Shown here one piece after another: positions 14,291-28,951 of a stretch of 29,754 bases of DNA. A model generated the notes under the pieces. It did not search any database, was not told the origin of the DNA, and saw only the letters and a program-made list of their open reading frames with translations. How positions within the stretch are numbered: the first letter of the stretch is position 1; each line of letters starts with the position of its first letter. Made by a program: the position numbers and the translations under genes. The stretch is from a virus: the IMG/VR virus record IMGVR_UViG_3300024518_003531, positions 1 to 29,754 of that record. The stretch is one strand, 5' to 3'.

Positions 14291-15307
14291 ATGGCAACCT
14301 ATGATCCTTTCTCTGGAGGAGTAAGCCTCCTCGAAGCCGCCAAGTGTGGCGATGACCAATTCAAAACCGGTGTAGTTGAGACTTTCATTCAGGAGTCTCC
14401 TATCGCCGAAATGCTGCCGTGGACTACCATCGCCGGCAACGCATACAAGTCGAGTGAAGAGGGAACTCTTCCTGACACCCAGTTCCGTTCAGTGAACGAG
14501 GGCTACACCCGAGTGTCCGGTTCAGATACCGAGCACATCTGGGGCGTAACCATCCTCGGTGCTGAAGTGTTCATTGACAACTTCCTCACAAAGGTTACGG
14601 CTAACAAGTCGGACCTCAAGGCGAAGCAGTGGGCCAAGGTTGTTCGCAGCCTTTCTCGCAAGCTCGACGTCACTGCCGTTAACGGTACTGGCTCGGCTGC
14701 GAACAAGGACTTCAAGGGTTTCCAGCAGCTCATCAAAGACGGCTTCGGCCAGGATCTCTCACACGCTGAGAGCGCCACACCCAAAGGCATCATCGACAGT
14801 GAGGCTAACGCCAACACCTTCCTTGACAAGCTCGACGAAGCGAACGACCTTCTCCGCAATCAGGAGATGGCAGATTTCATTCTGCTCAACCGTCAAACTC
14901 GCCGTGCGATCACCAAGGCTGCCCGCCTTGCGAACACAGGGTTCTCCCTGATCGACGTTGGCACTGACAGCTTCGGTCGTCAGGTCACACAGTGGAATGG
15001 CATTCCTCTGAAGATCGTCGGAGACGACCATGAGGGCAACGCCATCCTGGGCCAGACCGAAGATTCGGTCGACACTGGTGGCGATCCTGATGCAGCGACC
15101 GACACTTCTTCAAGCCTCTACTTCGTTTCTACCGGCGACGAGGGTGTCTCCGGACTCCTTGGTGCTGGCGGTAGCTTCGACGTCAAGGACTTCGGCGAAA
15201 CCGAAACTGCACCCGGTGCGGTCGGACGCCTCGAGCTCTACCCGGGCTTGGCATCATTCAGCAAATACGGACTCGTGCGCCTGCACTCGTTCGACCCAAC
15301 GGCATAA
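14291..15307 (+). CDS. Major capsid protein
   Basis: The 338-residue protein has the look of an HK97-fold major capsid protein. The N-terminal region has ESPIAEMLPWTTIAGNAYK and 'FRSVNEGYTRVSG', typical of the N-arm/E-loop part of phage capsid proteins with MLP...IAGNAYxY...LP...FRxVNE. A helical spine follows with 'MADFILLNRQTRRAITKA'. Then come the FGRQVTQWNGIPLKIV strand and a C-terminal beta region ending in GLASFSKYGLVRLHSF. The HK97 crosslink residues are not identifiable. It follows the scaffold by 21 bases with a strong purine-rich binding site (GGAGGGGG, 14276-14283). It is likely the most highly expressed gene of the window. Confidence 0.88.
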   Translation: MATYDPFSGGVSLLEAAKCGDDQFKTGVVETFIQESPIAEMLPWTTIAGNAYKSSEEGTLPDTQFRSVNEGYTRVSGSDTEHIWGVTILGAEVFIDNFLTKVTANKSDLKAKQWAKVVRSLSRKLDVTAVNGTGSAANKDFKGFQQLIKDGFGQDLSHAESATPKGIIDSEANANTFLDKLDEANDLLRNQEMADFILLNRQTRRAITKAARLANTGFSLIDVGTDSFGRQVTQWNGIPLKIVGDDHEGNAILGQTEDSVDTGGDPDAATDTSSSLYFVSTGDEGVSGLLGAGGSFDVKDFGETETAPGAVGRLELYPGLASFSKYGLVRLHSFDPTA

Positions 15308-15734: not shown

Positions 15735-16217
15735 ATGAGCGCCCTTAGCCAAGCCTATCTGAACAACCTCCTTACGGCTGGTTCGTTCGACCACGAGGGT
15801 GATGACAAGATCCGTGTCATCCTCGTGGACAGGGACAGTGTTACCGACAGCTATTTCGCTGGCATCGAGTTTGTCAACGAGATAGATGAGACGTACATTG
15901 CCCGTGGCGGCAACCAGTTCTGGACTGACGGTGTGAGTGGTGCCGAGATCGCTTATGACACGCTCACTAGCATTTCTGTCACTGCCTCTGGCGTTGTCAC
16001 TTCGGGTGACGACACCTCGGAGCTGGATGACCCTGACGTGTCGGAGACTTCTCAGACATTCAACGGTGTTGTTCTTCTCCGCTGGATCAATGACGAGACG
16101 GATTCACCTGTGATCTGTTTGCTGAACGCTGCGACGTCTCCTGTGCCTGTGAATGGTGCTGCAATCACGATCACTTGGCCGTCAGCAAACGCTCTATTCC
16201 AGATCCCTACGACGTAG
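15735..16217 (+). CDS. Small virion-associated protein (160 aa)
   Basis: The N-terminus (SQAYLNNLLTAGSFDHEGDDKIRVILVD) fits a common small phage protein pattern in which 'Y-x-LL-x-G-x-D...DxIkVxLvd' opens a beta-rich fold. The rest is beta-strand-rich with alternating Thr/Val/Asp and an ITITWPSANALFQI tail. Proteins of this kind sit in head or tail gene clusters, and their exact role is not known to me. It is separated from its neighbours by three and sixteen bases. The start at 15735 has only a distant GGAG, so translation may depend on coupling to the previous gene. Confidence 0.5.
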   Translation: MSALSQAYLNNLLTAGSFDHEGDDKIRVILVDRDSVTDSYFAGIEFVNEIDETYIARGGNQFWTDGVSGAEIAYDTLTSISVTASGVVTSGDDTSELDDPDVSETSQTFNGVVLLRWINDETDSPVICLLNAATSPVPVNGAAITITWPSANALFQIPTT

Positions 16218-16233: not shown

Positions 16234-18789
16234 ATGGCTGACCTACTACTCTGGGCCGGCGATGGTCTAACAGCTGGCGCATGGGACGGTGAGCTCGGCG
16301 ACGGGTCCGTTTCTGGTACAGCTGATTCTGTTCATGCTAGTGCTACTCTGTCGGAGTGGACGACTGGTTCTGGTGCTGTTGCTCTTGTCGAGGAGTACGC
16401 CGATCCGGCGCATACCGATTCGGTATCCGGCGATTCGGAAACCCTTCGCCTCTATCAGCCTACGTTTGCTACCGCCCGTATAAGGTTCCTGTACGACACG
16501 GATCACACGACCTCTTCGGGTCGGTTCTACTGGCGTCGTGGTGCGGATCAGGGCGGCTACAGCCCGTACATCGGTGCCTTCTATTCAAACGGTGCGTTGG
16601 CTTGGCGTATCCAGCTGCTGAGCAACGACAATATCCGTGTGTCGAACCAGTCGTCTACAACGGCTGGTACCGATTACGCCTATGGTGCTGGCGGTGCGGG
16701 TGATTGGCTGCGGTTCGAGTGGCAGCAGGACGGGTCCGATTATGACGTCCAAATGTGGGCGGAGTCGGACAACGGCCACGATGACGACGGTACTCCAACT
16801 AAAACTTGGACTGGTACTACGACTGCGACGTCTGCCGATGAGATGCGGTTGGGGTCGCATTCTCAAGCGGCTTTGATCCAGTACATGTACTATGACTCGA
16901 TTCGGGTCACTGATACTGCGACAGCTGTCGGCCCCTACACTGTGGCGGGCTCCTCCCCGGGCGCTCTCACCATGGACCAACACGATTGGGAAGAGGATCC
17001 TGATACGATCCTCTTCGGTGATGACGGTACAGGTCCAGGTGTAGCCCCTGAAGGTTTCGTCAGTCTCACGTCGTTGAACTCTACGACGCAGCCCACGTTT
17101 GTGAACGTGTTCGGTGCCGCTGACACCGGTCCGACTGTGGTCGCTGATACGGCCATCTATTACGGTCCGCCTTTGTTGAAGGCCGACAATCAATCTGACC
17201 ATTACGACGATTACCGTGGCGGTGTTCCTGAGTCGTTGACTCATCGCCGCTACATGGAAGTGTACTACCCTGACGACACTGTGCCGGTCACGCCGGCACC
17301 TGTTGTCGTGTTCATTCCGGGTGGCGGCTTCCAGTCTCACAACATTATACTGGGTACGTCTGCGGGCGCCGGGGGTGCAGCTAGTTTGAAGGCCGCTGTG
17401 TTGGCGGAGGGCTGGGTGTTCGTCGTCATGGATTACCGTTCTGCTCGTGGCGGCGGCGGGCCTAATGGGGTGTTCCATCCGGATCAGATCCATGACATCA
17501 AGATGGGGCTTGAAACCTTATCGTTGACTGCCGGCAATCATGGTATCGATGTCGATGAGCTCCATGTGTGCGGTCATTCTGCTGGCGGCTATCTGGCTTT
17601 GATGTCGCTGCTCACTGCTGGTGTGACGAGTTTGCCTGACGTGTCGTTCGACTCTAACGGGTTGGACCAGACTGGCCTGACGATTGACCCGTCGTTGACG
17701 GACTATTTCAACAGCGGTCTCCCTTATGCTGGGGGTCAGCTGCCGGGTGCCACTACTGTGGTGCCTACGTCGGCGGCTGCGTTTGAGGGTGTCGTCGATT
17801 TCGATATTGCTATCGCTCAGGCTGGTGCGGGTGTGGTGGCGGCGCAGGATGCGGGCCGTGCCTATATCGGTGCTCCGGGTCTTGGGTCTGGGAACTTTGT
17901 TGACGCTTGGTCGTTGCATTGTGAGATAGCGTCGAAGGACGGGTCGAACCCTAGCGTCGTGTCTCCTGTCATGGCGATTTATGCGGGCGAGGGTCACTCT
18001 TCGCCTGTCTACTATTCGTTCGGTCCGGTCGCTAGCACTGGTATGGTGACGGGCTGGAATGGTTCGGAATCGGATTCCGGTCAAGGCTGGGCTCTCCGGT
18101 TGGGCTGTGCAGATTACAGTATCCCTCACACGGAGGAGCGGTACGCTTCTTCGAGCCATGACGACATTACGAACGATTCCGCTGGCGGCTATGTGGCGTG
18201 GCTGCAAAGTCAGATCAACCGGCAGGACGCTGATGTCCTCGGGAAACTCGACATCTCTTCGATCGTCTTCAGTGATGACACGTTGGGGCCGAATGTGGTT
18301 GGGACGGAACCGACAGTCCTCGATGTTGAGGAGGCGGCATTCACTGAGATCATCTTCGGCGACGGCGGTGATGGCCCTGTTCTAGCTGTCGGTGCCGGCA
18401 TCCAGACCACCCAGTACCTTACGCACACTTGGGAGAACGATCCCACTATCGTGTTCGGTGATGCTGGTACGGGCCCGTCGATTGCCGGTGTCTCTCCTCA
18501 GGGTATCACGATGGAGGCGATGGTTGCCGGGTCGGCTACACCGTTCCCGGACATCGTGTTCCAGGAGCCGGATGTCATCAACGGTACGCCTACCGGGTTG
18601 ACGTTGGAGCAGCATTCGGGGCAAGCTATCGTGTTCTCGAGGCCGTTGCCTCATGGTCAGGTTAACACGGATGACCCTTGGCAGCAGGGCACTCTCACTC
18701 GTTTGGATACGGGCGGTTCAGACTTCGCTCGCAAGGTGCGGCGCAGGATGCGTCCGGTTTATGTTGGAGGTCTGAATGTCGACTCGTAA
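16234..18789 (+). CDS. Virion protein with LamG-like domain, inserted alpha/beta-hydrolase (esterase) and FGDxGTGP repeats
   Basis: The order of parts is as follows. Residues 1-235 are a LamG/concanavalin-like jelly-roll (WAGD start, 'TARIRFLYD', 'RFEWQQDG', 'YYDSIRV'). A repeat array follows with FGD-D-GTGP-like units at F261 and F293. Residues about 330-665 are an alpha/beta-hydrolase with an oxyanion-type PGGGF (362-366), a MDYRSA strand and a nucleophile elbow GHSAGG (447-452, nucleophile S449). H642 (SSHDD) is a candidate catalytic His, and the acid may be E586 or a nearby Asp. The repeats then resume at F679, F708, F741, F776 and F801. The C-terminus is basic. The fold resembles carbohydrate or feruloyl esterases (BD-FAE/CE10-like). 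It lies between capsid accessory and adaptor genes, so it is probably a virion surface enzyme that deacylates host glycans; that substrate is inference. Confidence 0.75.
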   Translation: MADLLLWAGDGLTAGAWDGELGDGSVSGTADSVHASATLSEWTTGSGAVALVEEYADPAHTDSVSGDSETLRLYQPTFATARIRFLYDTDHTTSSGRFYWRRGADQGGYSPYIGAFYSNGALAWRIQLLSNDNIRVSNQSSTTAGTDYAYGAGGAGDWLRFEWQQDGSDYDVQMWAESDNGHDDDGTPTKTWTGTTTATSADEMRLGSHSQAALIQYMYYDSIRVTDTATAVGPYTVAGSSPGALTMDQHDWEEDPDTILFGDDGTGPGVAPEGFVSLTSLNSTTQPTFVNVFGAADTGPTVVADTAIYYGPPLLKADNQSDHYDDYRGGVPESLTHRRYMEVYYPDDTVPVTPAPVVVFIPGGGFQSHNIILGTSAGAGGAASLKAAVLAEGWVFVVMDYRSARGGGGPNGVFHPDQIHDIKMGLETLSLTAGNHGIDVDELHVCGHSAGGYLALMSLLTAGVTSLPDVSFDSNGLDQTGLTIDPSLTDYFNSGLPYAGGQLPGATTVVPTSAAAFEGVVDFDIAIAQAGAGVVAAQDAGRAYIGAPGLGSGNFVDAWSLHCEIASKDGSNPSVVSPVMAIYAGEGHSSPVYYSFGPVASTGMVTGWNGSESDSGQGWALRLGCADYSIPHTEERYASSSHDDITNDSAGGYVAWLQSQINRQDADVLGKLDISSIVFSDDTLGPNVVGTEPTVLDVEEAAFTEIIFGDGGDGPVLAVGAGIQTTQYLTHTWENDPTIVFGDAGTGPSIAGVSPQGITMEAMVAGSATPFPDIVFQEPDVINGTPTGLTLEQHSGQAIVFSRPLPHGQVNTDDPWQQGTLTRLDTGGSDFARKVRRRMRPVYVGGLNVDS
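17014..18660 (+). repeat. Interrupted array of FGDxGTGP-type protein repeats
   Basis: Seven units have the core (I/V)FG-D-x-G-T-GP. They begin at residues F261, F293, F679, F708, F741, F776 and F801 of the 16234 gene, normally 25-35 residues apart; the last two keep only the (I/V)VF core. A gap of about 386 residues between units 2 and 3 contains the hydrolase, so the enzyme looks inserted into a pre-existing array. Confidence 0.6.
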
Positions 18790-19708
18790 TGTTACTATGG
18801 CTTCGATGGTGGACGACGTGTACCGTCGTCTCTATTCGCCTGCGGAGTGGCCGTTGCAGGTCACTGTCGGCACGTCCGCCCTGTCGAACGCTTCGACCAC
18901 CTCTTTGGAGGTGTCGAGCCCTGAGAAGGTGGCGTCGACTGACGTGTTGGAGTTCGGTTCGGAGCTGGTGTTGGTTTCGGATAAGTCGCAGTCGAACATT
19001 CTGACGGTGGCCCGTGGGTACATGGGCACACCGGTCAACGAGGTTGTGCTGTCTGGTACTCAGGGTATCAAGAACCCTCGGTGGCCTCGCTTCCAGGTTA
19101 AGCGGGCCCTCGAGCAGGCGGTTTCGTCTGGCCTTGTCGCTGCGTTGCCTGAGGTTCATGGGTTCGCTGCGAGTCCTTTGGAGGACTCTACGATCCTTGA
19201 GGTTGCGGCTGACATTGTGGATGTGACTAGGGTTGCGGTCCTCGATTCTGAGGGCCGTGTCATCGAGTTATCCCGCTGGGATTTCCTCGATCATTTGCCG
19301 GCGACGATGGTGCCGGATGGTAAAGCGATTCAGGTGCAGGGTGGCCCGGATGAGGACGACACGTTCTGGTGTACGGGGATCCGCCCGTATCACTGGTACA
19401 GCGAGGAGGGTGTCGACCGGGGTATTGGCGGTGCGCCAACCGAAGAGGAAGATTATGTGAAGTTGCCGGTGTTCGGCGACGATCTGCCCATGTTGTGGGC
19501 TGCGGCGAAGATGGCTACGGGACGTGAACTGTCCCGTGGCGAGTTGGACCGTGTGGAGGAGTGGAATCAGGAAGCGGCTATCGCTCAGGGTGTGAACATC
19601 CGGCTGATCCGTGAATTGTGGGGCGAGTTCTATCGTCGTGTCGACGAGGTTCGCAAGCATCAGCCGGTGAAGAAGCATCGGCCTTATCAACGTATGAGGA
19701 GTTTCTGA
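18776..19708 (+). CDS. Head-tail adaptor-like protein
   Basis: The 310-residue protein has an N-terminal helix (VDDVYRRLYSP), then a beta segment of the kind 'EFGSELVLVSDKSQSNILTVARGYMGTP'. That segment matches a pattern common in phage adaptor/connector proteins (G-E-x-h-x-V...LTVxRGxxGT). A helical region 'PRFQVKRALEQAV' follows, and the C-terminus is basic (KHQPVKKHRPYQRMRSF). Such proteins join the portal to the tail nozzle in short-tailed phages. The ATG is preceded by GGAGG at 18766-18770 (five-base spacing) and overlaps the end of the esterase gene by 14 bases. The adaptor role is inferred from pattern and position; a tail-tube protein A equivalent is a close alternative. Confidence 0.55.
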   Translation: MSTRNVTMASMVDDVYRRLYSPAEWPLQVTVGTSALSNASTTSLEVSSPEKVASTDVLEFGSELVLVSDKSQSNILTVARGYMGTPVNEVVLSGTQGIKNPRWPRFQVKRALEQAVSSGLVAALPEVHGFAASPLEDSTILEVAADIVDVTRVAVLDSEGRVIELSRWDFLDHLPATMVPDGKAIQVQGGPDEDDTFWCTGIRPYHWYSEEGVDRGIGGAPTEEEDYVKLPVFGDDLPMLWAAAKMATGRELSRGELDRVEEWNQEAAIAQGVNIRLIRELWGEFYRRVDEVRKHQPVKKHRPYQRMRSF

Positions 19709-28414: not shown

Positions 28415-28658
28415 CGTATGTCTCCCACGTTGTGCCCTTGAAGCGTAGCATCATACGCTTCCAGAGTGGCAATTGTTTCCAGTCGAGGTAACGCAGCATG
28501 GGCAGTCGCATCAGCAGCCGCTCCCCGCCCATGTCATCGAGCTCGAAGCGCCATACTGGTTGACGGTGTACAAAGCTACGGCGTCCTGAACCCAGCCGGG
28601 TGCGTACTTTGCTCGACTGTATCCGGGGTGCCCTGCTCGTGCGCTCATCGTCCGCCAT
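28401..28658 (-). CDS. Small hypothetical protein overlapping the muralytic lipoprotein gene
   Basis: From ATG 28658 this gives 85 residues, of which the first 50 lie in another frame of the lipoprotein gene. The last about 45 residues (WRFELDDMGGERLLMRLPML and a W-K-Q-L-P-L-W-K-R helix) look more like coding sequence. An internal ATG at 28532 would give a 43-residue product and reduce the overlap to 22 bases, though without a clear binding site. The stop makes a 14-base overlap with the primase start. Function unknown; the basic, Leu-rich C-terminus could bind membrane or nucleic acid. Confidence 0.4.
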   Translation of the reverse strand: MADDERTSRAPRIQSSKVRTRLGSGRRSFVHRQPVWRFELDDMGGERLLMRLPMLRYLDWKQLPLWKRMMLRFKGTTWETYDGTD

Positions 28659-28951
28659 GTACCGTCGATAAACTGGTAGGCTCCTGAGGCCGAGGAAGTG
28701 CCGTTCTGTGCTGCGTAGCCATTCCCGTGAGGATACGGTCCACGGTCTGATTCGTGATGACGTATGCACACTAGGGTTGGGTGCCGGCTCGGGCTCCATT
28801 GTGGTTTCGTCCCGTTGAGTTCGGGGTGCCTCTGGTTGACTAGCTGCTGTTGTTCCGGTGTGAGGGTCAGGTATGCTGCCACCTCTGCGGGGGTGCACGC
28901 TGTCAGGAAGACCCCTAAAGCCAGGATCGCTGTTAGTAGGATTCGTTTCAT
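28511..28951 (-). CDS. Rpf/transglycosylase-like muralytic lipoprotein
   Basis: The 146-residue protein has an N-terminal lipoprotein signal: K2-R3, hydrophobic core 4-15, lipobox L16-T17-A18-C19. A helical stretch (20-45) and linker follow. The catalytic domain contains C62-I-R-H-H-E67-S-D (E67 catalytic candidate), 'YAAQNGTSSASGAYQFIDGTWRTM' and 'GYSRAKYAPGWVQDAVALYTV', ending 'GSGC'. This is the lysozyme-fold Rpf/transglycosylase-like pattern of actinobacteria, cleaving peptidoglycan glycan strands. A lipobox is unusual for a phage endolysin and implies export by the host and anchoring outside the membrane. AGGAG lies nine bases upstream of ATG 28951. It lies among replication genes, far from the holin-like cluster. 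Confidence 0.75.
   Translation of the reverse strand: MKRILLTAILALGVFLTACTPAEVAAYLTLTPEQQQLVNQRHPELNGTKPQWSPSRHPTLVCIRHHESDRGPYPHGNGYAAQNGTSSASGAYQFIDGTWRTMSARAGHPGYSRAKYAPGWVQDAVALYTVNQYGASSSMTWAGSGC

Follow-up and report, generated by a model that had tools for sequence, protein, structure and literature searches.

The window that we analyzed is the whole 29,754-nucleotide stretch of an IMG/VR virus record (IMGVR_UViG_3300024518_003531). One uninterrupted open reading frame on the forward strand (16234..18789, +) encodes a protein of 851 amino acids, which we will term P0001. Upstream of it are the gene for the major capsid protein (14291..15307, +; PHROG 212, E = 7.7e-50) and a gene for a small PHROG 644-like protein of 160 amino acids (15735..16217, +; E = 3.1e-6). 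Downstream, and overlapping it by 14 bases, is an adaptor-like gene (18776..19708, +) that serves as our synteny marker; its function is assigned by position, and PDB profiles gave it no match. An earlier note on this DNA had placed the gene between head accessory and adaptor genes, which holds insofar as it lies between the PHROG 644-like gene and the gene at 18776. The P0001 gene is 100% identical in three contigs (the window, L002, and L003), which may share reads. Close relatives of P0001 were not found in isolates or plasmids, and searches of IMG/VR with peptide patterns returned only the same phage or distant esterases of the bacterial type.

P0001 begins with a putative beta-rich domain (residues 1-235; 16234..16938, +). 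The strands that AlphaFold places at residues 93-193 have low confidence (pLDDT of about 35-66). The LamG-like lectin domain that the earlier note saw here is a guess that found no support: residues 1-240 have no Pfam or PHROG match at E up to 10 and no credible PDB match. Matches of this region to armadillo repeats were rejected as artefacts with no significant stretch. In the full-length AlphaFold model, confidence is limited to about residues 341-466 and the rest is unusable, and the model's list of Foldseek matches is uninformative about the N-terminal domain and the repeats.

Two blocks of repeats flank the central part of the protein. Block 1 (residues 236-305; 16939..17148, +) has two units and block 2 (residues 666-810; 18229..18663, +) has five, with a unit of roughly P-x-G...[IV]-x-F-G-D-x-G-T-G-P-x-[VI]. 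The phenylalanine of the motif is at positions 261 and 293 and then at 679, 708, 741, 776, and 801, which gives spacings of 32, 386, 29, 33, 35, and 25. So, the regular spacing of 25-35 residues that had been described is broken only by the hydrolase interval, and the gap of 386 residues is exact. Seven units had been counted; five of these are good, while the last two, at 776 and 801, are degenerate. A strict form of the motif occurs 3 times, as compared to a mean of 0.02 and never more than 1 in 5000 shuffled sequences. The alignment of residues 235-306 to residues 665-830 has an E value of 5e-10. Therefore, the repeats on either side of the enzyme are one family. A single family on both sides is what an inserted enzyme would predict, and the earlier impression of an insertion into one repeat array is borne out by the alignment of the two blocks. 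GC content is uniform across the gene, with no shift at the esterase. P0001 ends in a basic tail (last 25 residues, with 6 K/R; 18712..18786, +), a feature that is common to syntenic genes.

The esterase interval lies between the repeat blocks (residues 306-665, with approximate boundaries; 17149..18228, +) and was identified by profile matches and by Foldseek. The BD-FAE family (PF20434) matches residues 341-467 (E = 3e-14; 53.5 bits, as compared to the curated cut-off of 26.8), although the match covers only positions 1-115 of the 215 positions in the profile. P0001 also matches the PHROG 3341 "esterase" family (2.8e-11), and its sequence relatives in the PDB include an acetyl xylan esterase (6xyc) and a carbohydrate esterase (6tkx). 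A profile of Acidimicrobiia esterases matches residues 302-465 (1.2e-31 when 3 sequences were searched) and nothing past residue 465. Both signatures of BD-FAE enzymes are present: the GGG oxyanion loop, as PGGGF (residues 362-366; 17317..17331, +), and the GxSxG nucleophile elbow, as GHSAGG with Ser449 (residues 447-452; 17572..17589, +). Thus, the alpha/beta-hydrolase that had been recognized from these two elements is confirmed. G447, S449, A450, and G451 are invariant in the esterase alignment, and the catalytic serine elbow is clear. We rejected an SGNH/GDSL domain, as only alpha/beta-hydrolase families match. Foldseek searches with a model of the domain return esterases with a probability of 1.00, although the TM-scores reach only about 0.4-0.55 because only half of the domain model is sound: the model is unreliable after about residue 467, and pLDDT is around 30 in the part that would hold the acid and the histidine. 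(The alignment behind the structure prediction had 12 rows.) The 694-residue "esterase" of Arthrobacter phage Seahorse (BFVD A0A3G3M533) resembles the domain model and is possibly a cultured counterpart of P0001.

The other catalytic residues are harder to place. One alignment puts His642 (18157..18159, +) and a GSESD stretch (residues 610-614) opposite the histidine and acid regions of a lambdoid esterase, which makes His642 an uncertain candidate for the catalytic base. Across 24 resampled alignments, the votes for the acid and the histidine of P0001 were scattered, and no aspartate was found in P0001 at the usual GxxD position. In contrast, the same procedure consistently chose D1145 and H1190 for a 1210-residue protein from another phage (L099, discussed below). 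These observations, together with the high divergence of the C-terminal half of the hydrolase, raise the possibility that the domain is catalytically dead or weakened and has been retained as the glycan-binding module of a fibre. We consider this unlikely: the GGGF loop and the GHSAGG elbow are intact, and E586, E612, D614, and H642 are still possible partners for the serine. In our preferred reading P0001 would be catalytically competent.

To place the gene in its genome, we used two further contigs of the same phage, which are 99.99-100% identical to the window wherever long common stretches were compared (one 668-base end has 98.7% identity). Upstream, the same-phage contigs add genes for a terminase (PHROG 38, 7e-80) and for a protein of portal size, as well as the beginning of a very long open reading frame; downstream, they add replication-type genes and a gene for an endolysin (PHROG 1493, 2.3e-33). 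We saw neither a tape measure nor a major tail protein, and very large proteins are encoded between the portal and the capsid, which suggests a short-tailed phage. The very long open reading frame lies between the portal and capsid genes (2-2308 in the window, extending upstream in contig L023); a region of it with an HDYFGH motif matches PHROG 3170 (1.8e-17), and it possibly encodes an injected multi-domain protein.

The host is probably an actinobacterium of the Acidimicrobiia type. The only match for the adaptor among genome contigs is in a metagenome-assembled genome (MAG) labelled Acidimicrobiaceae. Elsewhere in the window, a small lipoprotein-like product (28511-28951, -) has a weak match to Rpf-type transglycosylases (PF06737, E = 0.021), which fits an actinobacterial host, and also matches an endolysin family (PHROG 90, 8.5e-6). 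Relatives of the esterase are present in 122 of 296 genomes from the class of the Acidimicrobiaceae MAG, which is a plausible source of the domain; the family is widespread, though, and was present in 13 of 14 control genomes. PF20434 was found in this phage and in the phage of L099 (G006), and it was absent from 22 related records, many of them fragments. Because of this absence, it is likely that this phage acquired the esterase.

Phages with related capsids (about 50% identity) and adaptors (30-39% identity) have the same gene order as the window: g12335, a scaffold-like gene, the capsid, small genes, a variable interval, the adaptor, and a gene of 838 amino acids. We surveyed the interval in 27 loci, which are not independent (near-duplicates are included, and there are 19 distinct sequences). 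In 26 of the 27, the gene directly upstream of the adaptor encodes a protein of 239-524 amino acids with a basic end; the exception, L053, has a protein of 165 amino acids in this slot. The last 25 residues of the slot proteins contain a mean of 6.1 K/R, as compared to 2.2 for other genes of the interval, and all 26 have at least 5. P0001 fills the same slot and has the basic C-terminus. Several slot proteins are plain repeat arrays: the repeats are SDTGSGADAGSL in L044, KIGKGSATISHPHTV in L054, and LTGSLxGxGxLAGDL in L056. These three proteins (L044:7209-7970, L054:6396-7970, and L056:2355-3917) differ considerably in their repeat sequences, which gives the impression that the type of repeat is swapped or evolves very fast. 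The slot proteins show no sequence homology to P0001 (hhalign probability of 0.1% for the P0001 repeats against syntenic proteins of about 300 amino acids), and no homologs of the P0001 repeats were found in other relatives. P0001 is tied to the slot proteins by its position, its repeats, and its basic tail.

This syntenic set, with its basic C-termini and frequent repeats, backs the view that P0001 is encoded at a structural location. The earlier note had added that the gene is not among tail fibres, and this was misleading. Interval proteins in two relatives end in what look like S74-type chaperones (in L044, with a Pfam E value of 0.005 that is below the cut-off, and in L047, by reading). 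Therefore, the interval includes fibre genes.

We propose, with somewhat more belief than doubt, that P0001 is a virion-attached esterase or deacylase, made of a basic dock, a repeat stalk, and an acquired BD-FAE enzyme, that acts on glycans of the host surface. It would be a surface protein of the virion of an uncultured tailed phage, either a short fibre or a decoration, and probably near the head-tail junction. Its basic C-terminus would dock on the particle, and its repeats would form a stalk into which a secreted-type BD-FAE esterase was acquired. At attachment or adsorption, the esterase would strip acyl groups off a surface glycan, perhaps assisted by the N-terminal beta domain. Incorporation into the virion, docking by the C-terminus, and a glycan ester as the substrate are predictions, and P0001 plausibly works like a virion deacetylase. 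The virion reading is strengthened because basic-tailed and often repetitive proteins occupy the same slot in relatives.

Instead of glycans, the enzyme could target esters of the cell wall (O-acetyl groups on peptidoglycan) or of envelope lipids when the phage enters or lyses the cell, as a virion counterpart of lysin B. P0001 is an alpha/beta-hydrolase in a presumed actinobacteriophage, and lysin B of mycobacteriophages is an esterase (cited in PMC5559632). However, P0001 has no match to cutinase or lysin B families and we rejected an identity as lysin B; its gene is between the capsid and adaptor genes and not beside the endolysin; and carbohydrate esterases are among its closest solved relatives. 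This explanation seems to us distinctly improbable. Finally, we give very little credence to the idea that the esterase is no virion part but a stand-alone cargo gene whose fusion to a structural gene reflects a recent recombination event or an error in assembly: the same family is indeed encoded by free-standing genes in regulatory or early regions, outside of the structural region, in the isolate phages whose context was examined, but the three contigs (which may share reads) agree perfectly over the P0001 gene, the reading frame is single with the same repeats on either side of the esterase, its GC content is uniform, it overlaps the next gene, and the gene order is the same as in relatives.

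A parallel to the proposed virion esterase comes from L099, which was among the 21 stretches found by scanning the DNA of 2.9 million viral contigs for GHSAGG[YH]L. (Most of the other matches were noise from wrong reading frames, a tape measure, or unremarkable esterases of the bacterial type, and a second scan with AGY serine codons gave no further virion-type case. We also discarded MT836767.1 (L025), which was deposited as "Bacteriophage sp." but looks bacterial by its gene content, with genes for a transporter and a LysR-type regulator.) L099 (G006, 42 kb) is a siphovirus that is unrelated to the window phage. Its gene order, with names assigned by reading, is candidates for the terminase, portal, scaffold, and capsid, then the BD-FAE proteins, and then tail-tube and tape-measure-like genes. 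One BD-FAE protein has 1210 amino acids (L099:1102-4731; 1.7e-11 at residues 903-1028) and the other has 1000 (L099:5262-8261; 6.2e-7 at residues 264-361). The hydrolase of P0001 is 26-28% identical to both over its N-terminal half. In the 1000-residue protein, the enzyme is followed by 18 repeats of mostly 20 residues that match PHROG 13352 "minor tail protein" (5.3e-23) and, by tblastn, minor tail proteins of mycobacteriophages. The L099 repeats show no homology to those of P0001 (HMM scores were below those of shuffled controls). Only in P0001 does the enzyme interrupt the repeats; in L099 it lies before the repeats or at the C-terminus. Each BD-FAE protein of L099 is preceded by a small protein of about 155 amino acids; a homologous small upstream gene common to L099 and the window was not supported.

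A broader idea, which we put forward tentatively and doubt more than we believe, is that, in phages of actinobacteria, esterases of the secreted alpha/beta-hydrolase type repeatedly became part of repetitive surface proteins from the capsid-to-tail region. These would be a class of virion deacylases that is separate from the SGNH tailspikes and is possibly mounted on the head or neck and not at the tail tip. If so, then two unrelated environmental phages would show that a second enzyme family was recruited for virion deacylation, acylated surface glycans would be indicated for the hosts, and the proteins would share a three-part design of basic dock, repeat stalk, and exchangeable enzyme.

Among known systems, the bacterial BD-FAE, acetyl xylan, and feruloyl esterases (PDB 6xyc, 6tkx, and 6mly) share with P0001 the N-terminal half of the hydrolase, the GGG loop, and the GxSAGG elbow, but these are secreted cellular enzymes, and the second half of P0001 diverges from theirs and is longer. 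Stand-alone phage esterases (PHROG 3341 from lambdoid phages and the type found in mycobacteriophages Optimus and Gaia) belong to the same superfamily as P0001 but are separate genes, whereas P0001 is encoded in the structural region. The mycobacteriophage "minor tail protein" family (PHROG 13352) is, as P0001 would be, a structural protein with an array of short repeats, but it matches the repeats of the 1000-residue L099 protein and not those of P0001. DepoScope screened 1,926 phage proteins, from a set that was pre-chosen for depolymerases, for six folds including the alpha/beta-hydrolase fold; four folds were reported as found, and the alpha/beta-hydrolase was not among them (PMC11326577). 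A possible precedent is gp23 of the Arthrobacter podophage Bouclier, which has 540 amino acids and HHpred matches to esterases or hydrolases and was compared with the tail hydrolase of phi29 (PMC13286697). Both it and P0001, whose host is probably an actinobacterium, have esterase or hydrolase matches, which is a possible likeness. A functional parallel is with virion deacetylases. Those that we found described belong to phages that infect Gram-negative bacteria and are tailspikes or fibres of the SGNH type: G7C gp63.1, Aristophanes gp41, and SGNH fibres of Klebsiella prophages carry an esterase within a large modular virion protein (PMC13123978, PMC8471582). P0001 is likewise a large modular protein with an esterase domain, and for both, deacetylation of a surface polysaccharide is presumed. 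In contrast to their SGNH fold, P0001 has a BD-FAE alpha/beta-hydrolase, its enzyme lies inside a repeat array, and its gene lies between those for the capsid and the adaptor.
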